From: Verrucomicrobiia bacterium
Lineage (GTDB): Bacteria; Verrucomicrobiota; Verrucomicrobiia; Verrucomicrobiales; Akkermansiaceae
Assembly: GCA_030431475.1 (NCBI GenBank)
Contig: JAUIJD010000002.1
Location: forward strand, 62,001 to 126,000
Length of the DNA stretch: 64,000 bases
Direction of reading: 5' to 3'
Below are positions 48,779-64,000 of the stretch, one piece after another. Below the pieces are notes generated by a model that did no database searches, was not told where the DNA came from, and worked only from the letters and a program-made list of their open reading frames with translations. Numbering within the stretch: the stretch's first letter is position 1; every line of letters starts with the position of its first letter. Made by a program: the position numbers and the translations under genes.

Positions 48779-48809
48779 ATGCGCGGTTCGGCGACCGCGC
48801 ATGATTTTT
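48779..48809 (+). terminator. intrinsic terminator separating the pyrF-MBL group from the act operon
   Basis: A 9-bp perfect stem (ATGCGCGGT / ACCGCGCAT), loop TCGGCG, followed by GATTTTTC. Confidence 0.85.
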
Positions 48810-48871
48810 CAGAAATCCAGCAGTTTTTCCGGTTGCCAGCAGGGGATGGGTTTGCAACATCGGCGCGCCCC

Positions 48872-48890
48872 GCCGAAAGCCTCTTTCGGC
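48872..48890 (+). promoter_or_regulatory. hairpin in the actA leader
   Basis: Perfect 8-bp stem (GCCGAAAG / CTTTCGGC) with loop CCT, 78 bp before the actA ATG. No T-run follows, so its role is unknown. Confidence 0.35.
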
Positions 48891-48904
48891 AATGCCCCGA
48901 AATC

Positions 48905-48926
48905 GCTTGTGAAAAATTTCACAAGC
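48905..48926 (+). promoter_or_regulatory. CRP/FNR-like palindrome or attenuator hairpin upstream of actA
   Basis: Two 10-bp arms (GCTTGTGAAA / TTTCACAAGC) around AA contain the consensus TGTGA-N6-TCACA of CRP-family regulators, 41 bp before the actA ATG. The same bases can fold into a 9-bp stem followed by TCTGTTTTTC, so a terminator/attenuator is the other reading. Confidence 0.55.
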
Positions 48927-48967
48927 TCTGTTTTTCCCCGCCGCCGAGCACCCCGTCGTCGATCGTT

Positions 48968-49663
48968 ATGGCCAATTTCTTTCCGCGCTGGACCAATCTC
49001 CTGCCGTTCAAGATCGGAATCTGTGTGATCGCACTCGGCGCTGGCGTCGTGGCGGCCTTCACCTACTACGCGACGCCCAAGACCCTTGCGGTGGGCTACC
49101 AGCCGTCGCAGCCGATTCCCTTTTCCCACCGGATCCACGTCGAGCAGCTCGGGCTCGACTGCCGCTACTGCCACTCTTTCGTGGATGTCGCCGGCCACTC
49201 GAACGTGCCGACGTCGAACACCTGCTGGAACTGCCACCAGCACGTCCAGCAGGAGAGCCCCAAGCTCCAGCCGCTGCGCGACCGCTTTGATCCGGACCAT
49301 CCGGATTTCGGCAAGCCGGTCGAGTGGGTGCGCATCCACAAGACGCCCGACTACGTGTTCTTCAACCACTCGGCCCACGTGAACCGGGGCATTTCCTGCC
49401 AGAGCTGCCACGGCCGGATCGACAAGATGGAGGTCGTCTACCAGGCCGAGAACCTGTCGATGGGCTGGTGCCTCGAGTGCCACCGCGCGCCCGAGAAGCA
49501 CCTGCGGCCGATGGAGGAGGTCTACAATCTCGAATACGATCCGGAGCAGTACATCGCCGACAATCCGCATCTCGGCGTCAAGACCACCGAAGAACTGGGC
49601 CTCAAGCTCAAGGAACTGTGGCAGGTCCAGCCCCGCGAGTCCTGCGCCACCTGCCACCACTGA
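48968..49663 (+). CDS. actA: alternative complex III, pentaheme cytochrome c subunit ActA
   Basis: 231 residues from the ATG at 48968; the frame is open upstream but the first membrane segment (GICVIALGAGVVAAFTYYA) follows this start well. Five CxxCH motifs are present: CRYCH, CWNCH, CQSCH, CLECH, CATCH, the fifth at the very C-terminus. ActA is the periplasmic multihaem subunit that takes electrons from the quinol-oxidising part and passes them on. It heads an operon, 21 bp upstream of actB. The leader has a CRP-like palindrome. Confidence 0.95.
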   Translation: MANFFPRWTNLLPFKIGICVIALGAGVVAAFTYYATPKTLAVGYQPSQPIPFSHRIHVEQLGLDCRYCHSFVDVAGHSNVPTSNTCWNCHQHVQQESPKLQPLRDRFDPDHPDFGKPVEWVRIHKTPDYVFFNHSAHVNRGISCQSCHGRIDKMEVVYQAENLSMGWCLECHRAPEKHLRPMEEVYNLEYDPEQYIADNPHLGVKTTEELGLKLKELWQVQPRESCATCHH

Positions 49664-49684
49664 TTTTTCCCTCTTTCGCCGACC

Positions 49685-52600
49685 ATGAGCAAACGCATCT
49701 GGCAACACCCCGACGTGCCCGCCGACGAAACCACCGTCGCCTGGCGCAGCACGGGACAGCTTGAGAACACCGCCGACTTCCGCGAGTGGCTGGAACGCGA
49801 GTTCCCCCGCGGGGCCGCGGAAATGGCGAACCAGGAGGAGGCCGAGACCTCCCGCCGGAGCTTCCTCAAGCTGATGGGTGCCTCGACCGCGCTGGCCGGC
49901 TTCGGCATGGCCGCCTGCCGTCGCCCCGAGGCCCACATCCTGCCCTACGCGCAGGCCCCCGAGTGGGTGATCCCCGGCAAGGCGACCTACTACGCGAGCA
50001 GCTTCCCCCGCAGTGGCGGCGCCACGCCACTGGTGGTGACCTCCTTCGAGGGACGCCCGACCAAGCTGGCGCCGAACACGCTTCATCCGGATGCCGCCGG
50101 CACCGACGCCTTCGCCCAGGCCTCGGTCCTCGATCTCTATTCGCCCTACCGCTCGACCCGCGTGCTGAAGGGGGGCAAGCCCTCGTCGCGCAAGGAGTTC
50201 GACGCCGCCTTCGCGGAACTCGCCAAGGACTCGGGGGCGAAGGTCGGGTTCGTCTTCGGTCGCGATGATTCGCCGACCCGCACCCGCCTGCGCAAGGAAC
50301 TCGCCGGTCGCTTCGGCAACGCGAAGTTCTACGCCTACGAGGCGCTCGAAGGCGATGCCCACAAGGCCCACGGCGATGGCACCCGCTACGTCGCCGACTT
50401 TGCCAAGGCCGACCGCATCGTCTCGCTCGACTGCGATTTCGCCGGGCTCGACCCGATCGGCCCGGTCACGCCGTTCTCCGAGCGCCGCAAGCCCGAGGGC
50501 AAGGGCTACGACCAACACGCTTCGAAGGACGCCCTCAACCGCCTCTACACCGTCGAGAGCGGCTTTTCGCTCACCGGTGGCATGGCCGACCACCGCCTGC
50601 GGATCAAGCCGAGCCAATTGCTCCAGGTCGCGGCGCACATCGCCCGGCGCCTTGGGGCCGACGCCCCTGTCGGCGGCGTGCCGATTCCGGACAAGCGCCT
50701 CGGCGACTGGATCAACCCGATGGTCGATGACCTCAAGGCCCACGGCGGAAAGTCGATCGTCGTTGCGGGCAGCCGCGCGCCCGAGGTGGTCCACCACTTC
50801 GTCGCCGCGATCAACGCCAAGCTCGGCAACGTCGGGGACGACAAGCCCCTGCGCTTCGTCCGGACCGGCACCGAAGGTCTCGGCGACATCGAGCAGCTGA
50901 CCGCCGACCTCGGCTCCGGCGCGGTCGAGCACGTGCTTTTCTTCACGCCCTCGAACCCGGTCTACGACGCTCCGGCCGACCTGAAGTTCGGCGAGGTGCT
51001 CGCGAAGGCGAAGACCAGCATCCACTTCGGTCTCCGCACCGATGCCACCGCGAATGCCGCGACCTGGCACGTGCCCGCGAGCCACTATCTCGAGAGCTGG
51101 TCCGACAGCCGCACCGCCACCGGCGTGCACACCGTCGTCCAGCCGCTCATCCTGCCGCTCTACGCCGACTGTGCGAGCGAGCTCGAGGTCCTCGCCGCCT
51201 TGCTTTCCGAGGAGGGCGCGCTGGCCACCGGGGAAGGGGAGGAAGGCGCGGCCTCGCCGGCCTTGGTCGAAGTCCGCAAGACCTTCGAGGGGCTCGCCGG
51301 TGACAAGGAGGAGGACTGGAAGAAGTTCCTTCGCGACGGGTTCTACGCCGGCTCGACCTACGAGTCCGCGACCCCGCAGCTCGACTCCGGAAAGGCCGGG
51401 GAGCTGGTTGCCAAGGCGCCGAAGGCGAAGGACGGCGAGCTGGAGATCGTTTTCGCCACCGACGGCTCGATCTACGACGGACGCTGGATCGACAACGGCT
51501 GGTTGCAGGAGGCGCCCGATCCGATTTCGAAGGTCTCCTGGGACAACGTCGCGTTGATCGCCCCGAAGACCGCCAAGAACCTCGGCATCTACGACAAGAT
51601 CGTGACGCTCGAGACGCCGACCGCCGCCAAGCCGGCCGACGGCGAAGGGCAGCACCGCACCGGTCAGCTCATCCGGATCAAGGCCAACGGCGTCGAAATG
51701 GAAGTGCCCGTCCAGATCGGCTTCGGCCAGGCCGAGGACACCGTCATCGTGAGCCTCGGATACGGCCAGGGCTTCAGCGCCGAGGATGAACTCGGACGCG
51801 GTCCGCTCAACGAGTCCAACGTCGGTCTCGTCGGGATCAACACCGGCTTCAACGCCTACCCGCTGCGGACCGCCGCCGCCGGCTACTTCGCCGCGCTCGA
51901 GGGCGCCCCGGCGATCACCGGCAAGTCCTACAAGATCGCCGCCGTGCAGGAGCACCACGCGATGTACGGCCGCGCGCTGGCCCGCGAGGTTTCGACGCTC
52001 GACGACTCCAAGAAGGGCGACTTCGAGCACCAGCTCGCGAGCGTGAAGAAGCACGGGATGGATTCCCACGCGCCGCCGAACATCTCGCTCTACAAGCCGG
52101 TCGACGAAAAGGGAGAGTCTCTTCTCAGCGATCCGCTCCACCAGTGGGGCATGGCGATCGACCTCACTTCGTGCACCGGCTGCAACGCCTGCCTCGTCGC
52201 CTGCCAGGCCGAGAACAACATCCCCATCGTCGGCAAGGAGCAGCTCGCCATGGGCCGCGAGATGCACTGGATCCGGATGGACCGCTACTTCGCCGTCCAG
52301 CCGCTCAAGGATGACGACGGCAACTACGTCGAGGAGAACGGGGAGAAGGTGCTCGATGAGGACAACATGGAGCTGATTCCGCAGCCCGTGGCCTGCGTCC
52401 AGTGCGAGTCGGCGCCCTGCGAGACCGTCTGCCCGGTCAACGCCACCGTTCACACCGAGGACGGCCTCAACGCGATGGCCTACAACCGCTGCATCGGCAC
52501 CCGCTACTGCGCGAACAACTGCCCCTACAAGGCGCGTCGCTTCAACTTCTTCGACTACAACAAGCGCAACCCGCTGGTCCCGCACAACCTCTACCGGGGC

Positions 52601-53053
52601 CCGCTCGGCGAGAAGCAGGTCGGCACCGCCGCCCATCTCCAGCGCAATCCGAACGTCTCGGTCCGGATGCGGGGGGTGATGGAGAAGTGCACCTACTGCG
52701 TGCAGCGCCTCAAGGACGCCAAGATCCGCCAGAAACGCCGCCAGAAGCAGGAGTCGCTGGCATCCGGCGAGTCGACGAAGACGAAGATCGGCACTCCCGA
52801 ACTACGGATCCCGGTCGACTCCGTGAAGGTCGCCTGCCAGGAGGCCTGCCCGAGCGAGGCAATCAGCTTCGGCAACCTGCTCGACGAGAAGGACAGCCGC
52901 ATGGGCCGCGCGAAGAGCGTCGAGCGGAACTACGATCTCCTCAACTACATCGGCACGCGGCCGCGCACCAGCTACCTGGCGCGGGTCAAGAATCCGAACG
53001 AGAACATGCCGGGTGCCAGCCGCATCGGCAAGGCGACCATTCACATGCACTAG
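49685..53053 (+). CDS. actB: alternative complex III, iron-sulfur/molybdopterin-like subunit ActB
   Basis: 1122 residues. An N-terminal Tat-like signal (SRRSFLKLMGAS) at about residue 57 is followed by a molybdopterin-oxidoreductase-like domain (about 90-790) that in ACIII lacks Mo cofactor, then a ferredoxin-type domain with four cysteine clusters: CTGCNACLVACQ, CVQCESAPCETVCP, CIGTRYCANNCPYK with the later CTYC, and CQEACP. These bind Fe-S clusters that move electrons from quinol to the haems. The split of the two halves is as in Rhodothermus and Flavobacterium ActB (fused). The spacer to actC is 154 bp, long for this operon, and carries heptad tracts. Confidence 0.95.
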   Translation: MSKRIWQHPDVPADETTVAWRSTGQLENTADFREWLEREFPRGAAEMANQEEAETSRRSFLKLMGASTALAGFGMAACRRPEAHILPYAQAPEWVIPGKATYYASSFPRSGGATPLVVTSFEGRPTKLAPNTLHPDAAGTDAFAQASVLDLYSPYRSTRVLKGGKPSSRKEFDAAFAELAKDSGAKVGFVFGRDDSPTRTRLRKELAGRFGNAKFYAYEALEGDAHKAHGDGTRYVADFAKADRIVSLDCDFAGLDPIGPVTPFSERRKPEGKGYDQHASKDALNRLYTVESGFSLTGGMADHRLRIKPSQLLQVAAHIARRLGADAPVGGVPIPDKRLGDWINPMVDDLKAHGGKSIVVAGSRAPEVVHHFVAAINAKLGNVGDDKPLRFVRTGTEGLGDIEQLTADLGSGAVEHVLFFTPSNPVYDAPADLKFGEVLAKAKTSIHFGLRTDATANAATWHVPASHYLESWSDSRTATGVHTVVQPLILPLYADCASELEVLAALLSEEGALATGEGEEGAASPALVEVRKTFEGLAGDKEEDWKKFLRDGFYAGSTYESATPQLDSGKAGELVAKAPKAKDGELEIVFATDGSIYDGRWIDNGWLQEAPDPISKVSWDNVALIAPKTAKNLGIYDKIVTLETPTAAKPADGEGQHRTGQLIRIKANGVEMEVPVQIGFGQAEDTVIVSLGYGQGFSAEDELGRGPLNESNVGLVGINTGFNAYPLRTAAAGYFAALEGAPAITGKSYKIAAVQEHHAMYGRALAREVSTLDDSKKGDFEHQLASVKKHGMDSHAPPNISLYKPVDEKGESLLSDPLHQWGMAIDLTSCTGCNACLVACQAENNIPIVGKEQLAMGREMHWIRMDRYFAVQPLKDDDGNYVEENGEKVLDEDNMELIPQPVACVQCESAPCETVCPVNATVHTEDGLNAMAYNRCIGTRYCANNCPYKARRFNFFDYNKRNPLVPHNLYRGPLGEKQVGTAAHLQRNPNVSVRMRGVMEKCTYCVQRLKDAKIRQKRRQKQESLASGESTKTKIGTPELRIPVDSVKVACQEACPSEAISFGNLLDEKDSRMGRAKSVERNYDLLNYIGTRPRTSYLARVKNPNENMPGASRIGKATIHMH

Positions 53054-53057
53054 GGGA

Positions 53058-53085
53058 GACCTCAGACCCCCAGACGTCAGACTGG
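53058..53085 (+). repeat. 7-bp-periodic tract after actB
   Basis: TCAGAC-type units at 7- or 8-bp spacing (ACCTCAG, ACCCCCAG, ACGTCAG, ACTGG). Its reverse complement resembles the tract at 53157-53193, so the two may pair across the actB-actC spacer. Confidence 0.6.
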
Positions 53086-53156
53086 AATTCTCCGCACCTC
53101 ATCTCACCTCAACAGAATGCGAAACGCCATGAAGCTTCCGACCCATGCCTGCTCAA

Positions 53157-53193
53157 GTCTGGCGTCTGTTGTCTTCAAGTCTGTCGTCTCCAA
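53157..53193 (+). repeat. 7-bp tandem tract upstream of actC
   Basis: GTCTGGC, GTCTGTT, GTCTTCAA, GTCTGTC, GTCTCCAA in succession; two of the five units are 8 bp. Ends 14 bp before the actC ATG. Confidence 0.8.
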
Positions 53194-53207
53194 CTGATTT
53201 TCCCAAG

Positions 53208-54692
53208 ATGGCCACTGCCACCCAAAATGAACCGACCCGCCAGGGACCGAAGCTTCCGGTCCTCAAGCGCGAGAAGCTGATCCTCAACGACCGGTCCTAT
53301 CACTGGATCACCGAGCGGATCTGCGGCGTGTTGGAGAACCGTCAGCCCTTCCTCTGGTGGCTGCTCTTCATCCCGAGCGCGATCATCGCGGCGACCGGTG
53401 TCGGTTTCGGCCTGTTCCACCTGGTGTCGACCGGTGTCGGTGTCTGGGGGAACACCAACCGCGTGATGTGGGGCTGGCCCATCGTCAACTTCGTCTTCTG
53501 GATCGGTATCGGCCACGCCGGAACCCTGATTTCGGCCATTCTGTTCCTCACCCGCCAGAACTGGCGGACCTCGATCAACCGCGCCGCCGAGGCGATGACC
53601 ATCTTCGCGGTGATGTGCGCGGGCATCTTCCCCGCCTTCCACGTCGGCCGTGTGTGGATGGCCTGGTTCCTCGCTCCGATCCCGAACGCCAACGCGATCT
53701 GGCAGAACTTCAAGTCGCCGCTGCTGTGGGACGTGTTCGCGGTCTCGACCTACTTCACGATTTCGCTGATCTTCTGGTACCTCGGCATGGTGCCCGACCT
53801 CGCGACCATCCGCGACCGCTGCAAGCCGGGCCTGCGCAAGCTCCTCTACGGCCTGTTCTCGCTCGGCTGGCGCGGCGGCAACCGCCAGTGGAGCCACTAC
53901 GAGATGGCCTACCTGCTCCTCGCCGCGCTCTCGACGCCGCTGGTGCTCTCGGTCCACTCGGTCGTCTCCTTCGACTTCGCCACCTCGGTCGTTCCCGGCT
54001 GGCACACCACGATCTTCCCGCCCTACTTCGTCGCCGGCGCCATCTTCGGTGGCTTCGCGATGGTGCTCACCATCATGGTTCCGGCCCGTTTCATCTACGG
54101 CCTGCAGGACCTGATCACGATGAAGCACATCGACAACATGGCGAAGATCATCCTGCTGACCGGCACGATCGTCGGCTACGCCTACCTGATGGAGCTCTTC
54201 GTCGCCTTCTACTCCGGCGCCAAGTTCGAGATGGAGGCCTTCAAATACCGCATCACCGGTCCCTACAACTGGGCCTACTTCTGCATGATGTTCTGCAACG
54301 TCATCTCGCCGCAGGTCTTCTGGTTCAAGTGGTGCCGCGAGAACCTGTGGGTCGTGATGGCCGTCGCGATGTGCGTGAACATCGGCATGTGGTTCGAGCG
54401 ATTCGTCATCATCGTCACCACCCTCGCCCGCATGTGGCTGCCCGGGGACTGGAAATACTACTCCCCGAGCGGCCAGGACATGCTGCTGTTCATCGGCACG
54501 ATCGGGATGTTCCTGACCCTCTTCCTCCTCTTCCTCCGCTTCCTCCCCTGCATCAACATCGCCGAGGTGAAGTGGACGCTTCCCCAGTCCGATCCGCACC
54601 ACGACGACCACGAGGATCACCCCGACGACGGCGTCGCCGCCGAGGCCGCCTACCAGAAGGAACTTCATGGCTCCAAGGAGGCGACCGCCTGA
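53208..54692 (+). CDS. actC: alternative complex III, NrfD-like quinol-binding membrane subunit ActC
   Basis: 494 residues from the ATG at 53208; an earlier in-frame ATG at 53145 would run through the repeat tract. Ten hydrophobic segments between residues 40 and 460. NrfD-like polytopic protein, in ACIII the proposed site of quinol oxidation and proton movement. Features include [20 protein letters not shown] and [17 protein letters not shown] typical of ActC, and a His/Asp-rich C-terminal tail ([14 protein letters not shown]). Paralogous to ActF. Confidence 0.95.
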
Positions 54693-54702
54693 TGGTCCCG
54701 GC

Positions 54703-54730
54703 ATTTGAAATCTAGCATTTGGAATTTCCC
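54703..54730 (+). repeat. 7-bp tandem tract upstream of actD
   Basis: ATTTGAA, ATCTAGC, ATTTGGA, ATTTCCC in succession, three bases before the actD GTG. Confidence 0.75.
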
Positions 54731-54733
54731 GAC

Positions 54734-55288
54734 GTGAGTACGACCCGCAAACGAGTTTACGGCTACCTGGCCGAGTTCAAGAGCGCCTCCGCCCTCTACA
54801 AGGCGGCGGAGAAGGTGCGCGATGCCGGCTTCCGCAAGTGGGATTGCCACTCGCCCTATCCCATCCACGGCCTCGACGGCGCGATGGGCATCAAGCGGTC
54901 GATTCTCCCGTGGTTCGTCTTCTTCGGCGGCGCGACCGGCCTCGCCACCGGCTTCTTCCTCGCCTTCATCACCCAGGTGAAGATCTACCCGACGGTGGTC
55001 CAGGCCAAGCCGGCCAACATCTTCACCGTGCCGGCCTTCTTCCCGCCGATGTTCGAGCTGACCATCCTGTTCTCCGGCTTCACCGTGCTCTTCGGCCTGC
55101 TGGCCCTGATGAAACTCCCGCGGCTCAACCACCCGCTTTTCGCCAGCCGCCAGTTCCACCGCGCCACCGACGACGCCTTCTTCATCGCCATCGAGGCCCG
55201 CGACCCGAAGTTCAGCCCCGACGGCACCCGCTCGCTCCTCGAGGAGATCGGCGGCTCGAACATCGAACTCATCGAGGAGGAGGACTAA
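54734..55288 (+). CDS. actD: alternative complex III, membrane subunit ActD
   Basis: 184 residues from the GTG at 54734. Two membrane segments (about 58-80 and 100-122). The N-terminal soluble part, YLAEFKSASALYKAAEKVRDAGFRKWDCHSPYPIHGLD, is typical of ActD. ActD helps hold ActC and ActF together in the membrane. The start choice: an earlier TTG in the heptad tract is open in frame but unlikely. Confidence 0.92.
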   Translation: MSTTRKRVYGYLAEFKSASALYKAAEKVRDAGFRKWDCHSPYPIHGLDGAMGIKRSILPWFVFFGGATGLATGFFLAFITQVKIYPTVVQAKPANIFTVPAFFPPMFELTILFSGFTVLFGLLALMKLPRLNHPLFASRQFHRATDDAFFIAIEARDPKFSPDGTRSLLEEIGGSNIELIEEED

Positions 55289-55330
55289 CTCCCCGCTCCC
55301 AGCTCCCAGCTCCCAGCTCTCTGCTCCCAC
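55289..55330 (+). repeat. 7-bp tandem tract between actD and actE
   Basis: Six complete 7-mers fill the whole spacer: CTCCCCG, CTCCCAG three times, CTCTCTG, CTCCCAC, then one C before the actE GTG. The clearest case of the tract family. Confidence 0.92.
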
Positions 55331-55331
55331 C

Positions 55332-56036
55332 GTGAAATACTTCTTCCTCGCCTACGCCATCGTCGCCGCCCTGGTCATCGGGCTGCTGCCGATGCGCGGT
55401 GAAAAGTCGCCGGAAACGCCGCTGCGCCTGTTCCCGGACATGGACGACCAGGACCGGCTCGACGCCCAGGCGCCGAGCGAATTCTTCGCCGACGGCGCCG
55501 GCGGCCGGCATCCGGTCGACGGCACCCGCCCGCTCGGCTTCCAGGCCGATGGCGAAACCGAACTCGGAGGCATTCCGAGCTACGAGTTCGGCGGTGGCAC
55601 CGGCTACTACGAGACCGGTGGCATCGAAGGCTACTACTCCAACGGCATGCCCGAGGAACTGGGCCTGACCGAGGACAACGTCGTCACCTTCCTCCGCCGC
55701 GGGCGCGAGGTCTACAACATCAACTGCATGCCCTGCCACGGGGAGTCCGGCGACGGGCTCGGGGTGACCGCCAACTACGGCGTCCCCGGCATCGCCAACC
55801 TGACGCTGGAGTCGTTCCAACAGGCCACCTACCCCGACGGCCGGATGTTCGACGTGATCAGCAACGGCAAGAACAACATGGGTGCCTACAAGCACAACAT
55901 TCCGCTGCGCGACCGCTGGGCCGTGGTCGCCTACGTCCGCGCCCTCCAGCTCGCCCGCAAGGCGCCGCTCTCCGAGTCGTCGATCCAGGAGGCCTTCGAG
56001 GCCCAGATGGAGGAGCAGAAGCAAGCCGCCCAGTAA
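55332..56036 (+). CDS. actE: alternative complex III, monoheme cytochrome c subunit ActE
   Basis: 234 residues with a GTG start. An N-terminal membrane anchor or signal (YFFLAYAIVAALVIGLLP) lacks an obvious lipobox cysteine. The haem motif is CMPCHGESGDGLG; the methionine ligand is probably in NNMGAYKHNIPLRD. A Gly/Tyr-rich linker (YETGGIEGYYSNG) sits before the haem domain. ActE passes electrons from ActA to cytochrome oxidase or to another cytochrome. Confidence 0.93.
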   Translation: MKYFFLAYAIVAALVIGLLPMRGEKSPETPLRLFPDMDDQDRLDAQAPSEFFADGAGGRHPVDGTRPLGFQADGETELGGIPSYEFGGGTGYYETGGIEGYYSNGMPEELGLTEDNVVTFLRRGREVYNINCMPCHGESGDGLGVTANYGVPGIANLTLESFQQATYPDGRMFDVISNGKNNMGAYKHNIPLRDRWAVVAYVRALQLARKAPLSESSIQEAFEAQMEEQKQAAQ

Positions 56037-56049
56037 TCCCTTTCCCACC

Positions 56050-57417
56050 ATGGCATCCCATTTCGTCACCTCCGCAGACATCCCCGCCGACGGCGAGCGG
56101 CTGCACAACGCGACCGCGTCCAAGGTCAAGATGATCGCCGGCGGCGTCTGCGCGCTGCTCACGCTGGTCAGCCTCGTGCTGCTCTTCGTCGCGCCCGAGT
56201 CGGTGCGCGCGCCCTTCGCCTACTCGTGGCTCTTCGCGTTCTTCTTCTTCTTCACGCTGACCATCGGCGGGATCTTCTGGACGCTGCTGCACAACGTCTC
56301 GAACTCGGGGTGGGGGACCGCGGTCCGCCGCGTCATGGAGAATCTCGGTTCCATCTACCCCTTCATGTTCCTCTTCGCGATCCCGCTGCTCTGCCCGGCG
56401 GTGCAGCAGTACCTCTACGAGTGGATGACCACCCACCGCGAGGGGCTGTCGCAGGAGAATGTCGGCCTCTTCGACGGCGCGCTGCTCGGCTTCTACGGCT
56501 CCGATTCGTTGAAGCATTGGTTCGAGGAGCACCACCACGCCCTCCTCTACAACAAGGCCTGGTACATGAACCTCTTCGCCTGGTATGTGCGGGTGGTCTT
56601 CTACTTCGTGGCGATGACCCTCGTGATCCGCGGGCTGCGCAAGCTCTCGGTCGCCCAGGACACCGACCCGAACCCGGGCACCAAGCGCCTGTTCCAGGCC
56701 CGGTTCCACTCGACCTACACCTTCATTCTCTTCGCGATCACCATCACCTTCGCGGCTTTCGACCTGCTGATGGGCCTCGACTTCAAATGGTTCTCCACCA
56801 TGTGGGGCGTCTACCTCTTCGCCGGATCGGCGCTGAACTCGATGGCGGTCATCATCATCACCGTCACCCTGCTGCAGCACGCCGGCTACATGAAGAAGGT
56901 GGTCACCCCCGAGCACTTCCACATCAAGGGCAAGCTGCTCCTCGCCTTCACCATCTTCTGGGCCTACATCGCCTTCTCGCAGTTCTTCCTCATCTGGTAT
57001 GCCAACATCACCGAGGAAACGAGCTACTTCCTGATCCGCAACACCGGCGGCTGGAACACGGCGAACATCTTCCTCGTCTTCGGCCACTTCGTGGTGCCCT
57101 TCGTCATCCTGCTCCAGGCGTGGCTGAAGAAGAGCCCGAAGCTGCTCAGCCTGATGGCCGTCTACACGCTGGTGATGCACGTGGTCGACCACTACCTCAT
57201 CGTCATTCCCGAGCGTTCGGTCTCGCTGATGAACATCCTTCCGGAGCAGTTCGGCCACGTGACCACCGCGGTGCCCGGCGCGTTCTGGGGTGACCTCCTC
57301 GCCTTCGCGGCGATCGGCTCGGGCTTCGTCTTCTTCTTCCTGCGCGCCCTCGGCAGCAACAATCTCTATCCCAACCGGGACCCGCGTCTGCTCGAGTCCG
57401 CCAACGTCTCCAACTGA
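56050..57417 (+). CDS. actF: alternative complex III, NrfD-like membrane subunit ActF
   Basis: 455 residues from the ATG at 56050, with about ten membrane segments. Homologous to ActC; lacks the ActC-type C-terminal tail. FDGALLGFYGSDSLKHWFEEHHHALLYNKAWYMN holds the family His cluster (in short pieces: FEEHHHALLYNKAW). ActF is thought to form a proton path. It is 13 bp after actE. In many species coxB follows, but here a cytochrome c gene does. Confidence 0.93.
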   Translation: MASHFVTSADIPADGERLHNATASKVKMIAGGVCALLTLVSLVLLFVAPESVRAPFAYSWLFAFFFFFTLTIGGIFWTLLHNVSNSGWGTAVRRVMENLGSIYPFMFLFAIPLLCPAVQQYLYEWMTTHREGLSQENVGLFDGALLGFYGSDSLKHWFEEHHHALLYNKAWYMNLFAWYVRVVFYFVAMTLVIRGLRKLSVAQDTDPNPGTKRLFQARFHSTYTFILFAITITFAAFDLLMGLDFKWFSTMWGVYLFAGSALNSMAVIIITVTLLQHAGYMKKVVTPEHFHIKGKLLLAFTIFWAYIAFSQFFLIWYANITEETSYFLIRNTGGWNTANIFLVFGHFVVPFVILLQAWLKKSPKLLSLMAVYTLVMHVVDHYLIVIPERSVSLMNILPEQFGHVTTAVPGAFWGDLLAFAAIGSGFVFFFLRALGSNNLYPNRDPRLLESANVSN

Positions 57418-57451: not shown

Positions 57452-58261
57452 ATGTCTTCCCGCGACAATCCCTTCGTCCGCTTCGCCGCCTTCTGGTGGG
57501 GGATCGGCGTGATCCTGCTGTTCTTCGTCATCCTGCTCGTCACCCGCGCGATCGTCGGCGGAGGCGACGCCGAGGATCCGCTCGAGGAAACGGCGCGCAA
57601 GAACCGCCTCAAGACCCTGGCCGGCATCGAGGCCGCCCAGCAGGCCTATTTCGAGGCCAAGGTCGTCGAGGAGGGCAAGACGGTGCAACTCGATCCCGAG
57701 GGGGTCTTCGAGCACGTCGGTTCGCAGCTGCTCGCCGCCCAGCCGACCAAGGTCGATGACCCGGCCCAGGTGGTTCCGGGTTCCGCGGCCGCCGAGGCGC
57801 TGGCCACCGCCGGAGGGGAAGCCGATACCGAAGGGGTCGACGCGCTGACGCCCGAGGCCGGCACCGAGCCCGATCCCGCCATGATGGAGAAGGGCAAGCA
57901 GCAGTACATGGTCTGCATGGCCTGCCACGGCATGAATGGGGAAGGCGGTCCCGTCGGCCCGCCCTTGGCGAACTCCGACTGGGTCGCCGGCCCGGTCTCC
58001 AACCTGATCCGGATCCAGATGCGCGGTCTCGAGGGGCCGATCACCGTCTCCGGCAAGGAATACACCTTCCCCGCGCCGATGGCGCCGATGGGTGCCGCCC
58101 AGAGCGACGAGGACGTCGCGTCGGTGCTCACCTACATCCGCAACTCCTTCGGCAACTCGGCCCCGCCGGTCCTGCCCGAGCAGGTCAAGATGCTGCGCTC
58201 GGAGATCGGCAAGCCGCCGCTCACCCAGGACGACCTCATTCCCGTGGCCCCCGGCTCCTGA
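57452..58261 (+). CDS. membrane-anchored monoheme cytochrome c
   Basis: 269 residues from the ATG at 57452. One N-terminal membrane segment (FWWGIGVILLFFVILLVTRAI), a ~110-residue acidic, Ala/Glu-rich linker, then a class I cytochrome c domain with CMACHGMNGEGG and a probable methionine ligand in PAPMAPMGA. The end VASVLTYIRNSFGN is like that of the cytochrome at 60589, suggesting the two are paralogues. It is not CoxB: no cupredoxin domain or Cu-A cysteines are present. Likely electron carrier between ActE and the next oxidase-like module. Confidence 0.85.
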   Translation: MSSRDNPFVRFAAFWWGIGVILLFFVILLVTRAIVGGGDAEDPLEETARKNRLKTLAGIEAAQQAYFEAKVVEEGKTVQLDPEGVFEHVGSQLLAAQPTKVDDPAQVVPGSAAAEALATAGGEADTEGVDALTPEAGTEPDPAMMEKGKQQYMVCMACHGMNGEGGPVGPPLANSDWVAGPVSNLIRIQMRGLEGPITVSGKEYTFPAPMAPMGAAQSDEDVASVLTYIRNSFGNSAPPVLPEQVKMLRSEIGKPPLTQDDLIPVAPGS

Positions 58262-58267
58262 TCCATC

Positions 58268-59755
58268 ATGTCCACGCCTTCCGACAACGCCTTCGACGTG
58301 CAGCTCCGCAGTGAGATCGACCGCTCACTGCGCCACCCGGTGATGTTCTTCTTCACCAGCGGTGCCGCCTGGCTCGCCGTTGCCATTCTTCTCGGCATCA
58401 TCTCCTCGGCCAAGGTCCACGCGCCGGGCTTCCTCGACAGCTGCCCGTGGATGACCTACGGCCGGGTTTCCGCCGCCCACCAGACCGCGCTGGTCTACGG
58501 CTGGGGCTGCCAGGCGGCCTTCGGCATGATCATCTGGCTGATGTCCCGCCTCTCGCGCCAGACCTGTCGCAATGTCGGCACGATCCTGATGGCCGGCCAC
58601 GTGTGGAACTTCGCCCTCTCGCTCGGCGTGATCGGCATCCTTGCCGGCGGCGGCACGGGCATGCCGTGGATGGAGATGCCTTCCTTCGCCTGGATCCCGC
58701 TCCTCCTGGCCTATGTCGCCATCACCATCTGGTCGATGGTCCAGTTCAAGGTCCGCCCGGAAGGGCACACCTACATTTCGCAGTGGTACCTGATGGCCGC
58801 GCTGATCTGGTTCCCGTGGTTCTTCGGCTCGGCGCACCTGCTGGTGCACGGTTTCTCCGGCAGCCCGCTCGGCGCCGCCGGCGTCAACGCCTGGTTCCAC
58901 TCGGCGATGCTGCTTCTGTTCTTCGCGCCGGTCGGCATCGGCATGGCCTACTACCTGGTGCCCAAGGTCATGGGACGGCCGGTCTACAACTACGCGCTGT
59001 CGCTGATCGGGTTCTGGAGCCTGGCCATCATCGTGCCATGGGCCGGGATGCAGAAGCTCACCGGTGCCCCGGTGCCGAACTTCCTTCCCTACCTCGGGGC
59101 CTTCGCTGCGATTTTGTTCGCGGTGCCGGCCGCCGTTGCCGGGATCAACCTGCTCAAGACCGCGGCCGCCGACATGGAGACGGTCAACCACAGTCCGACC
59201 CTGCGCTTCACCGTCTGGGGCCTGGTCTTCCTGCTGGCGTTCGGCTTCGCCAGCCTGGTCCTCAACAGCCCGGGGATCACGCAGGTCACCCAGTTCACGA
59301 TCGCCGGCTACGGCTTCGACATCCTCGGCGTCTACGGCTTCTTCAGCTTTATCGCCTTCGGCGCGATCTACTTCATCGTCCCGCGCATCACCCGCCGCGA
59401 GTGGCTTTCCCGCCGCCTGATCAAGTGGCACTTCTTCGTCTCGATCTACGCGGTGATGGCGATCGTCGTGGTCACGCTCTTCGGCGCCCTGATGCAGGGC
59501 ATCGCGCAGGAGGGAACCTACGACGGCCTCTGGTACAACGCCGCCTCCACCGTCTTTCCCTACGCGGTGCTCACCACCATCGCCTGGTGCTTCCTGCTGA
59601 TCTCCAACTTCTTCTTCTTCATCCACCTGACGCTGATGTGGCTGCGCCTCGGCCGCCGCAGTTCCCACCCGACGCTGCTGGTCCACCACGAGCCGGAAAG
59701 CCCGCACGGCCCGGAGGGCGACATCGACAACACCGGCACCGCCTCCGCCCACTGA
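58268..59755 (+). CDS. CcoN-like (cbb3 oxidase subunit I-like) membrane protein lacking most metal ligands
   Basis: 495 residues, twelve membrane segments, homologous to CcoN along its length (e.g. WHFFVSIYAVMAI, ALMQGIA). Of the CcoN ligands, the helix-II haem His (H71 in AAHQTALVYGWG) and one Cu-B His (H211 in NAWFHSAML) remain. The helix-VII HH that binds Cu-B in AGPHH is replaced by Q262-K263 (WAGMQKLTG). The helix-X HVH of GHVHSGALGW is replaced by G347-Y-G349 (TIAGYGFDILG). So neither haem b3 nor Cu-B, nor the second low-spin ligand, should be bound. Probably not a working oxidase; it may be a scaffold or electron/proton partner. Confidence 0.8.
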   Translation: MSTPSDNAFDVQLRSEIDRSLRHPVMFFFTSGAAWLAVAILLGIISSAKVHAPGFLDSCPWMTYGRVSAAHQTALVYGWGCQAAFGMIIWLMSRLSRQTCRNVGTILMAGHVWNFALSLGVIGILAGGGTGMPWMEMPSFAWIPLLLAYVAITIWSMVQFKVRPEGHTYISQWYLMAALIWFPWFFGSAHLLVHGFSGSPLGAAGVNAWFHSAMLLLFFAPVGIGMAYYLVPKVMGRPVYNYALSLIGFWSLAIIVPWAGMQKLTGAPVPNFLPYLGAFAAILFAVPAAVAGINLLKTAAADMETVNHSPTLRFTVWGLVFLLAFGFASLVLNSPGITQVTQFTIAGYGFDILGVYGFFSFIAFGAIYFIVPRITRREWLSRRLIKWHFFVSIYAVMAIVVVTLFGALMQGIAQEGTYDGLWYNAASTVFPYAVLTTIAWCFLLISNFFFFIHLTLMWLRLGRRSSHPTLLVHHEPESPHGPEGDIDNTGTASAH

Positions 59756-59763
59756 CCCGCGGC

Positions 59764-59798
59764 CATTTGTCATTGGAGTTTTAACATTCGGCACTTCG
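59764..59798 (+). repeat. 7-bp-periodic tract before the CcoO-like gene
   Basis: CATTTGT, CATTGGA, GTTTTAA, CATTCGG, CACTTCG in succession, five bases before the ATG at 59804. More degenerate than the others. Confidence 0.6.
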
Positions 59799-59803
59799 AA
59801 TCC

Positions 59804-60568
59804 ATGTCCTTCCGCCTCTTCGCCATCGGTCTCACCGCCAGCTTCGGCCTCGCCTGGCTCTCGGTCGTGGTCGTTCCCTTCTTCAAGCTTCGCACCCCGT
59901 CCCCGATCTCCTTCCAGGAGGGATTCGACGAGCAGGAGGGCATCTACCACCCCAAGCGCGCCGGTCGCGTCGCCAACGGCGCCGCCGTCTACGCGGAGAA
60001 CGGCTGCTACCAGTGCCACACCCAGGTGATTCGCCCGACCTACGCCGGGATGGATCTCGCCCGGCCGGACGTCGGCGGCCTCTCGCCGGCGGTGAATCCC
60101 GACGGCATCGACAGCCGCCGCGAGTCGAACGTGTTCGACTACAGCGGACTGGACTTCGCGATGATCGGCACGACGCGCACGGGCCCGGACCTGATGAACC
60201 TCGTGCCCCGTCTCAAGGCCCGCGTCCGCCAGCAGGCGAAGGACGACGGCGAGGAGATCTCCGAAGGCGTGGTGGCCGGTCGCGTGCGCGACTACCTCTT
60301 CCAGCACCTCTACAACCCGCGGAGCTTCGCCCGGCTCGAAAACTGGTCGAGTTGCCCCTCGATGCCCTTCCTGTTCGAAGAGCGGGAGATCAAGGGCCAG
60401 CCTTCGGATGACGCGCTCGATGTCACCGTCGAAGCCGGCCACGAGGTCGTTCCCGGCGACCGCGCCGAGGCGCTGGTGAGCTATCTGCTCTCGCTCGAAC
60501 ACGACGATCCGGTTCCCGCGACCATGGACTACGCCCCGGCGGCTCCGGCCGACGACTCGCAAGGCTGA
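59804..60568 (+). CDS. CcoO-like membrane-anchored monoheme cytochrome c
   Basis: 254 residues. An N-terminal anchor (MSFRLFAIGLTASFGLAWLSVVVV) is followed by the CcoO pattern: NGAAVYAENGCYQCHTQVIRP with haem Cys68, Cys71 and His72, GTTRTGPDLMN, and HLYNPRSFARLENWSSCPSMPF with the Met ligand. In cbb3 oxidases CcoO hands electrons to CcoN. Since its CcoN partner here lacks ligands, its acceptor is unclear. It is 48 bp after the CcoN-like gene. Confidence 0.85.
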   Translation: MSFRLFAIGLTASFGLAWLSVVVVPFFKLRTPSPISFQEGFDEQEGIYHPKRAGRVANGAAVYAENGCYQCHTQVIRPTYAGMDLARPDVGGLSPAVNPDGIDSRRESNVFDYSGLDFAMIGTTRTGPDLMNLVPRLKARVRQQAKDDGEEISEGVVAGRVRDYLFQHLYNPRSFARLENWSSCPSMPFLFEEREIKGQPSDDALDVTVEAGHEVVPGDRAEALVSYLLSLEHDDPVPATMDYAPAAPADDSQG

Positions 60569-60588
60569 ACCTCCCTTCCCGACACCCG

Positions 60589-61365
60589 ATGCAAGATCCC
60601 AACAAGCCCGATCTCGACGAGACGCTGAACGTCACCGAGTCCCACGACCGGATGCTGCGCGAAGCCGCGGCCGTGTCGCGTGAGAAGCACGTCGACGAGG
60701 GAGGTCGCGAACCGGTCTCGCTGTGGATCTTCGCGTCCTGCGGCCTCATCCTGATCTTCGCCGGCCTGGCGCTCGGGAACATCGGGTCGCTCGGCTCGCT
60801 TTTCGACTACGACCAGACGGTCAAGCCCGGCTACGTCCGCCTCGACCTCAGTGAGGATGGCGCCAAGGGGCCGCCGCCCGCCGAGGCGCTGGCCGTCTAC
60901 ATGAAGAAGGGCCAGAAGATGTACAGCTCGAAGTGCCAGGGCTGCCACGGCGGCGACGGCAAGGGAGGGGCCGCCGCGCCGTCCCTGGTCGGCAGCGAAT
61001 GGGCCCTCGGGGATACCCAGCGCTTCGCGATGATCATTCTCAATGGCCTGGCCGGTCCGACCAGCACCGGCCAGACCTTCGCCGGTGGCATGCCCACCCA
61101 GAAGGTCGGCATGGCTCCGGTCGATCTGGCGGGCGTCATGACCTACGTCCGCAACTCCTTCGGCAACGAGACCGGTGACGTGATCACCGAGGAAATGGCC
61201 GAGCACGCCTTCAAGCTCGCCGAGGAGCGTTCCGATCCGAACGCCCAGTCGACGAAGGAAGAGCTCGAGTCGAAATACCTTGCACCCCTCGAGGGCGAAC
61301 CGATGGATCCATCGACGAAGATCGATCCGGTCACCCTCGAGCCGGTCGAAGATGCCGCCGGTTGA
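60589..61365 (+). CDS. CcoP-like membrane-anchored monoheme cytochrome c
   Basis: 258 residues. One membrane segment (SLWIFASCGLILIFAGLALGNIG) and one CxxCH (CQGCHGGDGKGG), whereas true CcoP has two haem domains. The segment GVMTYVRNSFGN resembles the end of the cytochrome at 57452. The last ~60 residues are acidic and probably disordered. It is 20 bp downstream of the CcoO-like gene and 124 bp before coxA. Confidence 0.8.
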   Translation: MQDPNKPDLDETLNVTESHDRMLREAAAVSREKHVDEGGREPVSLWIFASCGLILIFAGLALGNIGSLGSLFDYDQTVKPGYVRLDLSEDGAKGPPPAEALAVYMKKGQKMYSSKCQGCHGGDGKGGAAAPSLVGSEWALGDTQRFAMIILNGLAGPTSTGQTFAGGMPTQKVGMAPVDLAGVMTYVRNSFGNETGDVITEEMAEHAFKLAEERSDPNAQSTKEELESKYLAPLEGEPMDPSTKIDPVTLEPVEDAAG

Positions 61366-61489: not shown

Positions 61490-63361
61490 ATGAGCGCCAC
61501 CGCGACCCACGACGAGCTGCACCACGATCATCACGACCCCGGATTCGTGCGGAAGTACATCTTCTCGACCGACCACAAGATGATCGGCCTCCAGTACGGC
61601 ATCACCGCCGGACTGTTCCTGTTGTTCGGCTTTTTCCTGATGATCGCGATGCGTTGGAGCATCGCCTTTCCCCACGAGCCGCTGCCGGGGTGGATCGCGA
61701 TGTTCTTCCCGGACGGCTGGGAGGCCCGCTGGCTCCAGGACGGAAAACTGACCGGTGACGCCTACAACATGTTCGGCGCCATGCACGGCACGATCATGGT
61801 CTTCCTCGGCGTCGTGCCGCTCGGCTTCGGTGCCTTCGGCAACTACGTCACCCCGCTGCAGATCGGGGCGCCCGACATGGCCTTCCCGCGGCTCAACATG
61901 ATGAGCTACTGGATCTACCTCGCCGGTGGGCTGGTGATGTGCGCCTCGTTCTTCATGGAGTCCGGCGCCGCCAAGTCGGGCTGGACCAACTACTCGCCGC
62001 TCGCCGGTATCGCCGACGGCCAGATCGTCAACCAGTGGCTGGCCGGCCAGACCCAGTGGCTGATCGGCCTGGTGCTGCTCATCACCTCCTCGCTGCTCGG
62101 TTCGGTCAACTTCATCACCACCATCATCAACCTCCGCGCCCGCGGCCTGACCTGGATGCGGATGCCCTTCTTCGTCTGGGCGATGCTGGTCACCGGCTTC
62201 CTCCTGCTGCTCGCCTTCCCGCCGCTCGAGGCGGCCGGTATCATGCAGCTCATGGACCGGGTCGCCGGCTCCTCCTTCTTCATGCCCAGCGGCCTCTACA
62301 CCTCGGCCGAGGGCCTGATGGAGATTTCGGGCGGTGGCTCGCCGCTGTTGTTCCAGCACCTGTTCTGGTTCCTCGGTCACCCGGAGGTCTACGTGCTGCT
62401 CCTGCCGGCGATCGCCTGCGTCGCGGAAATCATCCCGGCCAACACCCGCAAGCCGCTGTGGGGCTACAAGGCGATGGTCTACGGGGTGCTGGTGCTCGGT
62501 TTCCTCTCGTTCATCGTCTGGGCCCACCACATGTACATGACCGGCATGGGTCCGGTCGTGTCGACCTTCTTCCAGACGACCACGGTGCTGATCTCCATCC
62601 CCTCGGTGATCCTCCTGACCTCGCTGATCATCTCGCTGTGGCAGGGATCCATCCGCTTCACCCCGGCGATGATCTGGGCCTGCGCCTTTCTTCCGATGTT
62701 CGGCATCGGCGGCCTCACCGGCCTGCCGCTCGCCTTCAACCTCGTGGGCCTGCACCTTCACGACACCTACTACGTGATCGGCCACTTCCACTACGTGGTG
62801 GCGCCGGGCATCCTCTTCGGCCTCTTCGCCGGGGTCTACCACTGGTATCCGAAGATCACCGGGCGCTTCATGAGCCGCTTTCTCAGCCACCTGCACTTCT
62901 GGCCCAGCCTGATCTGCATGAACCTGATCTTCTTCCCCATGCTCACGCAGGGCATGGCCGGCTTCCACCGCCGCTGGTACAACGGGGGGGACTCCTACCT
63001 CGCCACCGACCCCGAGAGCGCGAACGTCTTCGGCCGGACCGTCGCCGAACACATCGACCTCAACATCGTGATGTCCTACGCGGCCTGGGCGATGGCGCTC
63101 GCGCAGGTCCCGTTCCTGATCAACCTCGTCTGGTCGAAGCTGGCCGGCCGCAAGGTCGAGAGCGACAACCCGTGGAATGCGACCACCCTCGAGTGGGCGA
63201 CCCCGACGCCTCCCGGCCACGGCAACTTCACCACCGAACCGGTCGTCTACCGCGGCCCCTACGAATACAGCCGCCCCGACCACGACGAGGATTTCCTGCC
63301 GCAGTGGACGGAGCCGAAGAAGCCGGCCGAGAAGCCGGAGGAGAGCCCCGCGGCGCACTGA
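61490..63361 (+). CDS. coxA: cytochrome c oxidase subunit I (aa3 type, A-family)
   Basis: 623 residues from the ATG at 61490. All ligands are present: H99 (AMHGTIM) and H434 for the low-spin haem, H297 in GHPEVY with the cross-linked Tyr301, H346 and H347 in WAHHMYM for Cu-B, and H432 in GHFHYV for the high-spin haem. The Glu of HPEVY and GNYVTPLQIGAPDMAFPR indicate the A1-type D-channel. It reduces O2 to water and pumps protons. An N-terminal His-rich stretch (DELHHDHHD) precedes the first helix. Confidence 0.96.
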   Translation: MSATATHDELHHDHHDPGFVRKYIFSTDHKMIGLQYGITAGLFLLFGFFLMIAMRWSIAFPHEPLPGWIAMFFPDGWEARWLQDGKLTGDAYNMFGAMHGTIMVFLGVVPLGFGAFGNYVTPLQIGAPDMAFPRLNMMSYWIYLAGGLVMCASFFMESGAAKSGWTNYSPLAGIADGQIVNQWLAGQTQWLIGLVLLITSSLLGSVNFITTIINLRARGLTWMRMPFFVWAMLVTGFLLLLAFPPLEAAGIMQLMDRVAGSSFFMPSGLYTSAEGLMEISGGGSPLLFQHLFWFLGHPEVYVLLLPAIACVAEIIPANTRKPLWGYKAMVYGVLVLGFLSFIVWAHHMYMTGMGPVVSTFFQTTTVLISIPSVILLTSLIISLWQGSIRFTPAMIWACAFLPMFGIGGLTGLPLAFNLVGLHLHDTYYVIGHFHYVVAPGILFGLFAGVYHWYPKITGRFMSRFLSHLHFWPSLICMNLIFFPMLTQGMAGFHRRWYNGGDSYLATDPESANVFGRTVAEHIDLNIVMSYAAWAMALAQVPFLINLVWSKLAGRKVESDNPWNATTLEWATPTPPGHGNFTTEPVVYRGPYEYSRPDHDEDFLPQWTEPKKPAEKPEESPAAH

Positions 63362-63388: not shown

Positions 63389-64000
63389 ATGGAAATTCCC
63401 TACGTCGTCAATCCGCGCAAGGACACCGGCCTCTTCAACTCGAAGATCGCCATCTGGCTGTTCCTCGCCTCGGAAGTCATGCTCTTCGGCGGGCTGTTCT
63501 CCGGATACGTCTTCCTGCGCATCGGCGCCGACTACCCGTGGCCGGAGCGGACGCTTCCGGTGCTCCCCGGCCTGATCAACACCTTCATCCTGATCGCCTC
63601 GTCGGTGACCGTGGTGTTCGCCTGGGCCGCGCTGAAGATGCGCAAGTGGCGCCAGTTCCAGATCTTCATGGGGATCACCGTCGCCTGCGCGTTGATCTTC
63701 ATGGTCTTCAAGGGCGTCGAGTACGGGGTGAAGTTCAAGCACCAGGCGCTGCGGATGAACGACTTCACCATGGTCGAGGGACACATCGGCTACGTGAAGG
63801 CCAAGGGGGGTGACGACCATGCCGACGACCATGCCGACGACCACGGGGAGGAACACGGGGACGACCACGCCGCCGACTATGCCCGCGACGTTCACGGCGA
63901 GAAGATCGAGGCGAACCAGCACGTCTTCGCCGCCGAGTCGGTGGCCTTCAATCTCGCCCGCTACCACAAGCCCTGGGCCGAGGATCTCATCGCCGAGGCG
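63389..64000 (+). CDS. coxC: cytochrome c oxidase subunit III, N-terminal part (3' end outside window)
   Basis: 204 codons from the ATG at 63389, frame open to the window end. SKIAIWLFLASEVMLFGGLFSGYV is the standard subunit III start, and four membrane segments are seen up to residue 120. Residues about 140-162 are an unusual insertion of DDHA/DDHG-like repeats rich in Asp and His. Subunit III stabilises CoxA and affects proton uptake. It is 27 bp after coxA. Confidence 0.9.
   Translation, partial: MEIPYVVNPRKDTGLFNSKIAIWLFLASEVMLFGGLFSGYVFLRIGADYPWPERTLPVLPGLINTFILIASSVTVVFAWAALKMRKWRQFQIFMGITVACALIFMVFKGVEYGVKFKHQALRMNDFTMVEGHIGYVKAKGGDDHADDHADDHGEEHGDDHAADYARDVHGEKIEANQHVFAAESVAFNLARYHKPWAEDLIAEA

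Follow-up and report, generated by a model that had tools for sequence, protein, structure and literature searches.

A CcoN-like protein without haem-copper ligands in an alternative complex III-aa3 oxidase operon of Verrucomicrobiota

INTRODUCTION

Subunit I of the haem-copper oxidases is commonly used as a marker of oxygen or nitric oxide (NO) respiration. A question about that use is raised by a 64,000-nucleotide stretch of DNA from a Verrucomicrobiia bacterium of the Akkermansiaceae (assembly GCA_030431475.1, contig JAUIJD010000002.1, forward-strand positions 62,001 to 126,000; hereafter the window), in which a gene for a protein resembling CcoN, subunit I of the cbb3-type oxidases, stands between the genes of an alternative complex III (ACIII) and those of an A-type (aa3) oxidase. 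An earlier note, made from the letters of the window alone, claimed that this protein, here termed pseudo-CcoN (pN) or CcoN', has lost its active-site ligands and that it might, with companion cytochromes, represent a role of the haem-copper fold other than that of an oxidase. Can the protein hold the metals of an oxidase, is its state peculiar to this genome, and what may have kept it in the operon if it is not an enzyme?

RESULTS

Pseudo-CcoN has the predicted fold of CcoN and one of its six ligands

The gene of pseudo-CcoN (ccoN', 58268..59755; this and all features below are on the + strand) encodes 495 residues and has no internal stop. Residues 25-438 match the COX1 profile PF00115 with 126.5 bits, the score against the NCBIfam ccoN model TIGR00780 (114.6 bits) is far under the 583-bit cut-off, and the only solved structures matched at E ≤ 1 are CcoN chains of cbb3 oxidases (five sequences, best E 6.9e-24). 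With an AlphaFold2 (AF2) model, which was built on five sequences and has a modest mean pLDDT of 58, a Foldseek search ranked cbb3 chains at the top (PDB 3mk7, E 5.6e-13, TM score 0.72-0.77), and alignment of the model with the CcoN chain of 3mk7 by VIA-align gave a Z of 29.2 across 429 residues, placing the predicted structure in the COX1 fold. Sequence and predicted fold both bear out the claim that the protein follows CcoN throughout. The corresponding model of the neighboring CcoO-like protein (mean pLDDT 53) was used for no claim.

The ligand columns were set by alignment to 12 canonical CcoN sequences of the same phylum, one of them from the window genome, and to the solved cbb3 structures. 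At the six columns that carry the ligands of the two haems and Cu-B, and that are His in all 12 canonical sequences, pseudo-CcoN reads HSQKFI, so that one ligand of six is kept. This is His71 in helix II (58478..58480), in a column for the low-spin haem. The Cu-B column of helix VI holds Ser212 (58901..58903) and the two Cu-B columns of helix VII hold Gln262-Lys263 (59051..59056), the latter as the earlier note had read them, and in helix X the columns for haem b3 and the low-spin haem hold Phe350 and Ile352, on either side of an Asp (59315..59323). The note had located the loss of the helix X His-Val-His motif at Gly347 and Gly349; the loss is genuine and the register was wrong, which is without consequence as there is no His nearby. 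It had also retained His211 beside His71 as a remaining ligand; His71 stands, but His211 is adjacent to the Cu-B column at Ser212 and is not conserved (among the 19 order-level copies, a set that contains the window's and underlies all residue counts for that group, this column is Arg in 6, Val in 6, Lys in 4, and His in 3). When alternative His ligands were sought in the stretches of helices VI, VII, and X, only His211 was present, one column off, and in the alignments no lost ligand is replaced by a different His. With Ser, Gln, Lys, and Phe in the relevant columns, haem b3 and Cu-B could not be held in the known way, as had been argued, and the alignments strongly support the conclusion that CcoN' would be unable to perform haem-copper chemistry of a known kind.

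The loss recurs in an ACIII-linked family

Of 288 genomes searched in the phylum, 90 had a match; 65 of these, in the window's class, hold the ACIII-linked family and 25 only more distant CcoN; a scan of genome contigs with pseudo-CcoN alone returned four close relatives. Neighborhoods of 12-20 kb were fetched from the 64 family genomes besides the window's own, and together with the window and loci L036-L038 these provide 68 copies (L035, on the same contig as L039, was dropped from trees and counts, and L109 was left out of the CcoN alignment). The family was sampled within the phylum, and additional relatives were taken from the order. The block order actABCDEF-ccoN'-ccoO'-ccoP' recurs throughout the class and, in the window too, ccoN' lies behind the act genes and ahead of ccoO- and ccoP-like genes. 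ActE is found in the stretch in all 68 loci, ActC in 65, ActB in 64, and ActA in 63, and ActD scores above its cut-off in all 65 class genomes that hold the family. In L048-L050 the act cluster is split, with only actE near the ccoN' operon and actD on a different contig.

All six His are present in 21 of the 68 copies, termed intact here, and none to three in the other 47 (zero in 8, one in 33, two in 4, and three in 2), termed ligand-lost. Not one of the 47 retains the first helix VII His or the full Cu-B trio, and the column of the cross-link Tyr, which is Tyr in 12/12 canonical and 21/21 intact sequences, is Tyr in none of them, being Val256 in the window. Another 20 copies, comprising members of the order (some of the window's family) as well as second copies, include 18 that fall short of the full ligand set and 2 that are intact. 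The latter, L151 and L152, are second CcoN-O-P copies in genomes G382 and G405 that are nearest to L055 and have no act genes seen in the stretch; each of these genomes also carries a ligand-lost copy. The low-spin haem His pair is kept, with the active site lost, in L054, L057, and L159. Because these three keep that pair and none of the 47 copies keeps the Cu-B trio, ligand loss may have been stepwise, beginning at the active site.

The recurrence of ligand loss in 47 of 68 syntenic copies argues that it is not a chance event. It also answers the earlier note, which had asked whether the same losses and the same act-cox neighborhood are to be found in other Verrucomicrobiota and had allowed for a gene absent from all relatives and decayed here only; the family is present in 65 genomes of the class. 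Among the matches listed from the open-licence literature, no title or abstract describing ligand loss in these proteins was found. Two side observations concern ACIII itself: ActD is matched only weakly in thirteen genomes of genus g2, in the window's family, and these genomes are absent from the CcoN matches, possibly reflecting an ACIII-like remnant, and genomes with two ActD matches, such as G018 (L120), have a second ACIII cluster followed by an A-type oxidase and no CcoN module.

The order-level copies have invariant residues of their own in helix XII, namely Trp440 (59585..59587), Asn447, and His453, each found in 19 of 19, as is His71. Column 440 is Gly in every intact copy (21 of 21) and in every canonical sequence with a residue there (11 of 12, the twelfth having a gap). 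Asn occupies column 453 (59624-59626) in 20 of the 21 intact copies and in all 11 canonical sequences with a residue at that place; it has become His in the order-level group and in 10 of the 28 other ligand-lost copies, a recurrent change. The last helix (residues 449-473) is more conserved in the order-level group than in the intact copies (mean 0.82 versus 0.58), and residues 199-248, around the helix VI ligand, and 324-348, before the helix X ligands, are less conserved.

Repeated loss under purifying selection

In a CcoN tree from which the ligand columns were excluded, and for which canonical CcoN served as outgroup, the distinction between intact and lost requires at least three changes via well-supported branches, and a tree constrained to keep all ligand-lost rows in a single clade is rejected (p-AU 0.000448; its log-likelihood is lower by 83.8). 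A single loss was discarded on this test, with the caution that the ligand-lost rows are long branches. A tree of ActB plus ActC for 64 of the 68 loci, made by a quick method with no mixture model and omitting L048, L049, L050, and L076, where those genes are missing from the stretch, requires 8 changes, at least 6 of them forced by starred branches. The changes are taken as losses because the canonical outgroup is intact in 12 of 12 sequences; the direction comes from the outgroup and not from the count. For the intact state to have been regained, six His and the Tyr would have to return. L086, L088, and L093 join the Opitutaceae-like set on the CcoN tree and not on the ActB plus ActC tree. 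The clearest loss is that of L075, which has the state AAVNQQ in a full-length frame and the intact L064, L068, and L073 as its neighbors in both trees. Since the trees need several losses, the ligands appear to have been lost several times, independently in different lineages.

The ratio of nonsynonymous to synonymous divergence (dN/dS) of CcoN', calculated pairwise from stop-to-stop frames, is 0.10-0.29 in 11 ligand-lost pairs, which are not all independent, as against 0.05-0.075 in the two computable intact pairs (dS is saturated in two further ones); constraint on the ligand-lost proteins is therefore weaker yet clear. Full-length open frames are found in most copies, and the synteny and the purifying selection are likewise largely maintained. 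An in-frame stop occurs in each of three matches from the order (G310, G311, and G314) and also in one intact copy, G119.

Methanotrophs carry ligand-lost copies

Genes of the AMO/PMO family (PF02461) accompany the ACIII-ccoN' operon in G042, G054, G072, G152, and G265. The CcoN' of these methanotrophs reads SESHFV or ADAHQT at the ligand columns, with five of six ligands lost and the second helix VII His present. The search matches include no second full-length CcoN in the five genomes; G152 has one extra match, of 84 residues. In the accessible parts of the published work, ACIII of verrucomicrobial methanotrophs is described as co-located with a cbb3-type oxidase (PMC8498564, PMC6688271), their high oxygen affinity is tied to this ACIII-linked oxidase (PMC6688271), and the cbb3 type is named among their terminal oxidases (PMC10205796). 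From its place, the published ACIII-linked oxidase would be the product of the same gene as ccoN'. In one locus of the methanotroph family (L118, genome G008), the act operon is followed by coxC, and ccoN', ccoO', ccoP', and coxA are jointly missing from the stretch.

One cytochrome of the module is kept throughout

Genes resembling ccoO and ccoP (ccoO' and ccoP') lie behind ccoN' in 67 and 66 of the 68 loci, respectively; the filter missed CcoO' in L085 and CcoP' in L069 and L074, where the neighborhood survey shows a CcoO'-like frame in the first and one frame each in the other two. A CxxCH motif is present in all 67 CcoO' and all 66 CcoP' proteins. Canonical CcoP has two haem motifs, whereas CcoP' has a single one in the window and in all 66 loci, intact relatives included. 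The axial Met of CcoP' (Met168) is found in 65 of 66, the remaining sequence being a gap in L057, where the gene is cut by the contig end. The CcoP' haem appears to be the only redox site of the module that is kept throughout.

In CcoO', the column of the haem axial Met holds Cys184 in the window (60353..60355), and it is Cys in all 13 proteins of the window's clade (WIN, L036-L047) and in L155, L156, and L170 of the same family, so that the CxxCH motif is there without the Met of a His/Met c haem. This column is Met in all 21 modules with intact CcoN, and in 46 ligand-lost modules it is Met in 27, Cys in 13, His in 2, Arg in 2, Ala in 1, and Lys in 1. The 18 further ligand-lost modules have Met in 11, Cys in 5 (L155, L156, and L170, together with L161 and L163 of another family), Ser in 1, and His in 1, and the two further intact ones have Met. 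Low potentials are known for haems c with His/Cys ligation, and the CcoO' haem in the window's family probably has a low potential and no longer lies on the main path. In 14 of the 68 loci the gene immediately ahead of ccoN' encodes the extra cytochrome cyt1, which lacks CxxCH in 3 of these (3 of 13 within the window's family); the three homologues, in L038, L045, and L047, are shortened to 129-148 residues. Because the axial Met of CcoO' and some cyt1 haem motifs are lost, CcoP' would be the candidate carrier if electrons do pass through the module to the aa3 oxidase in the window's family.

The module and the aa3 oxidase

CoxA is encoded behind the module in 23 ligand-lost loci and 1 intact locus of the 68. 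Of 20 operon loci scanned, 15 showed a CoxB, which in every case (15 of 15) has a CuA motif but lacks a haem motif (one of these loci, L083, has no CoxA in the stretch, and a further motif match, within a 666-residue frame of L102, was set aside as chance). CoxB proteins from elsewhere in the same genomes have CxxCH behind the CuA motif in all 30 that were fetched, which are best-scoring matches and not a random draw. Taken from matches with E under 1e-120, and among the matches listed for 64 genomes, an A-type subunit I is present in 43 of 43 ligand-lost genomes and in 17 of 21 intact ones. The four genomes without it (G001, G128, G146, and G228) all have intact copies, and COX2 is absent from the same four. 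Among the matches listed, G001 and G146 have no PF00115 protein other than the intact copy, which fits a working oxidase.

In ACIII supercomplexes, according to the accessible parts of one report, electrons are handed over by a cytochrome domain on subunit II (Rhodothermus marinus) or on ActA (Flavobacterium johnsoniae) (PMC5928083). Neither was seen here, the operon CoxB having no cytochrome domain in 15 of 15 loci and ActA having five CxxCH motifs in 63 of 63 counted (stop-to-stop frames of 217-324 residues), with no extra cytochrome motif; there is therefore room for the CcoN'OP' module in this step. The earlier note had suggested an electron-transfer or docking module between ActE and CoxA. 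A bridge to CuA receives some support from the CoxB proteins, but a path through the whole set of cytochromes does not, given Cys for Met in the CcoO' of 13 of 13 clade members and three more and the missing cyt1 motif in 3 of 13.

Components of the operon

The window contains, in this order, actA-F (48779-57417), a monohaem cytochrome gene, ccoN', ccoO', ccoP', coxA, and coxC, and the earlier note had described these neighbors correctly, from ActA-F upstream to the A-type subunit I. ActA (48779..49663, start codon uncertain) is a pentahaem cytochrome c with Cytochrome_C7 and QrcA-type matches, and ActB (49685..53053) is a Mo-protein-like and Fe-S subunit with Fer4 domains and matches to QrcC/QrcB and a TAT-variant Mo-protein. 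They are followed by the NrfD-like membrane subunit ActC (53145..54692; PF03916, 84.9 bits), ActD (54719..55288; PF11821, 199.6 bits), and ActE (55332..56036), a monohaem cytochrome c with a single CxxCH (PF13442). A second NrfD-like membrane subunit, ActF (56050..57417, with a putative start), is recognized by position and hydrophobic make-up; it gave no match in Pfam and NCBIfam searches, and frames at the same place in three relatives weakly match ActC. With ActF assigned from its place and a weak similarity only, all six ACIII subunits are encoded in one cluster.

The membrane-anchored cyt1 (57452..58261; PF00034, motif CMACH) precedes ccoN'. Behind ccoN', CcoO' (pO, 59804..60568) is a monohaem cytochrome with the motif CYQCH and matches to CcoO of the PDB (E ~3e-5) and to TIGR00781, and CcoP' (pP, 60589..61365), also a monohaem cytochrome, has CcoP as its best PDB match (7.6e-10) and matches TIGR00782. 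CoxA (61490..63361) is an A-type haem-copper subunit I (PF00115, 425.9 bits). The coxC gene for subunit III (63389..64000) runs past the window end as a 634-residue frame to 65293 in window numbering and includes a hydrophilic insert of ~400 residues; a coxB whose product has a CuA motif but lacks a haem motif lies beyond the window end at 66202-66993 in the same numbering. Four PF00115 matches were found in the window genome: pseudo-CcoN, the adjoining CoxA, a CcoNO fusion that is encoded on a separate contig and keeps all six ligands, and L003, which was left out of the analysis.

DISCUSSION

Haem-copper folds with an altered active site are known from nitric oxide reductases and NO dismutase-like qNOR paralogues, in which the haem ligands are kept and the Cu-B site or a few ligands are changed. 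The module described here shares with the cbb3 CcoNOP oxidases (PDB 3mk7, 6xkw, and 8smr) the subunit I fold over nearly the whole length, homologues of CcoO and CcoP, and the N-O-P order, but it has no Cu-B, haem b3, complete low-spin haem site, or cross-link Tyr, and it is linked to ACIII. With the ACIII-aa3/caa3 supercomplexes of F. johnsoniae and R. marinus the operon has in common ActA-F followed by CoxA, CoxC, and CoxB of an A-type oxidase; in the window, however, a cbb3-derived module stands between the two sets of genes. The C-type oxidases linked to ACIII in Opitutaceae and verrucomicrobial methanotrophs have the same gene neighborhood and, by the present evidence, belong to the same family; in the accessible parts of the reports they are termed terminal oxidases (PMC8498564, PMC6688271), whereas the five methanotroph genomes in this study have lost five of six ligands.

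We tentatively propose, as a reading with nearly even prospects, that the module descends from a former ACIII-cbb3 assembly whose burnt-out oxidase core is kept as a membrane adaptor, with CcoP' passing electrons to the aa3 oxidase. The ancestral cluster would have combined ACIII with a C-family (cbb3-like) oxidase CcoNOP in which CcoP was already monohaem. CcoN would then have lost the ligands of Cu-B, of haem b3, and mostly of the low-spin haem, here and independently in other lineages, and with them the chemistry of the oxidase core, perhaps after an A-type oxidase took over. CcoN' may have been retained because ACIII, and the aa3 oxidase encoded next to it, physically depend on it, so that it is now probably a structural partner rather than an enzyme. 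The adaptor role that we infer would be that of a cofactor-poor membrane protein holding the cytochromes CcoO' and CcoP' against ACIII. Electrons from menaquinol would leave ACIII through ActA and ActE. The CoxB of the aa3 oxidase lacks a cytochrome c domain, and its CuA would receive them from the CcoP' haem, which has kept its Met ligand. The non-oxidase role that the earlier note foresaw for the haem-copper fold gains support from the presence in this ACIII-aa3 operon of a CcoN that lacks the metal site and is conserved in relatives.

Several observations weigh against this proposal. The losses in CcoO' and, in some species, in cyt1 indicate that the redox chain of the module is eroding in the window's family. 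The CoxB pattern has exceptions, as short CoxB proteins (269-313 residues) occur away from the module in G013, G166, G223, and G268 (their haem motifs were not part of the count of CoxB haem motifs), and the intact copy L055 likewise has a linked CoxB without cytochrome c. The association with an A-type oxidase hinges on four genomes, which belong to two families (Fisher p 0.009, uncorrected for kinship). Finally, many Opitutaceae-like loci keep a ligand-lost module and have no CoxA in the fetched stretch, and a bridge to the aa3 oxidase is therefore not its sole function. If CcoN'OP' were a structural subunit of ACIII only, stabilizing the complex or aiding its assembly, with no electron flow to aa3, it would be expected to stay with ACIII, as it does, in loci such as L078-L086 and L088-L097, whose fetched stretches show no CoxA. 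The eroding sites of CcoO' and cyt1 point in the same direction, and there is a precedent in ACIII itself, where the ActB1 domain, according to the accessible parts of the report, resembles molybdopterin proteins and has no prosthetic group (PMC5928083). However, a purely structural part does not need the haem motif of CcoP', kept in 66 of 66, or its axial Met, kept in 65 of 66 with one gap, and CoxA does follow the module in 23 ligand-lost loci; we consider this explanation possible, although somewhat unlikely.

Could CcoN' instead retain one haem b, bound by His71 and a new partner such as His388 or His453, through which electrons pass? The invariance of His71 in the order-level copies, the appearance there and elsewhere of His453 in place of Asn, and the retention of both low-spin haem ligands in L054, L057, and L159 are consistent with such a site. 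By its place in helix XII, however, His453 should sit near the cytoplasmic end, distant from His71; the change of Gly440 to Trp would be close to the haem pocket; and His is missing from column 71 in 25 of the 28 other ligand-lost copies and in L153, L160-L163, and L166 of the order, which makes a retained haem improbable. Similarly improbable is a new activity, such as a proton or ion path, a small-molecule channel, or maturation of the adjoining aa3 oxidase: the predicted fold is kept, and polar residues replace the Cu-B ligands (Gln262 in 18 and Lys263 in 15 of the 19 order-level copies), but the replacing residues vary among lineages (QK, SR, RH, AQ), which argues against one shared new site. 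That the gene is decaying without function is very improbable. Ligand-lost copies can evolve faster than their intact sisters (the L075 branch is 0.61, against 0.036-0.12), and in-frame stops occur, although an intact copy has one too; set against this are the full-length frames of most copies, the dN/dS values, the conservation of the neighbors over deep divergence, and the new clade-specific invariant residues Trp440, Asn447, and His453.

For the family as a whole, homology and operon context can mislead, because its members are annotatable as cbb3 oxidases and yet 47 of 68 copies, methanotrophs included, are without the metal site. The copies that keep only the low-spin pair suggest that the active site was lost first, and the intact and burnt-out forms of the ACIII-bound module in close relatives, such as L075 beside L064, L068, and L073, constitute a natural experiment in which the structural part played by a complex IV core in a III-IV assembly can be separated from catalysis. 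It appears rather likely that there were several independent conversions of a catalytic oxidase core into a cofactor-poor scaffold of an ACIII-pseudo-cbb3(-aa3) assembly, and that the "cbb3" beside ACIII in methanotrophs and many other Verrucomicrobiota is no oxidase. If this is true, selection on ACIII-bound CcoN mainly preserves a structural role.

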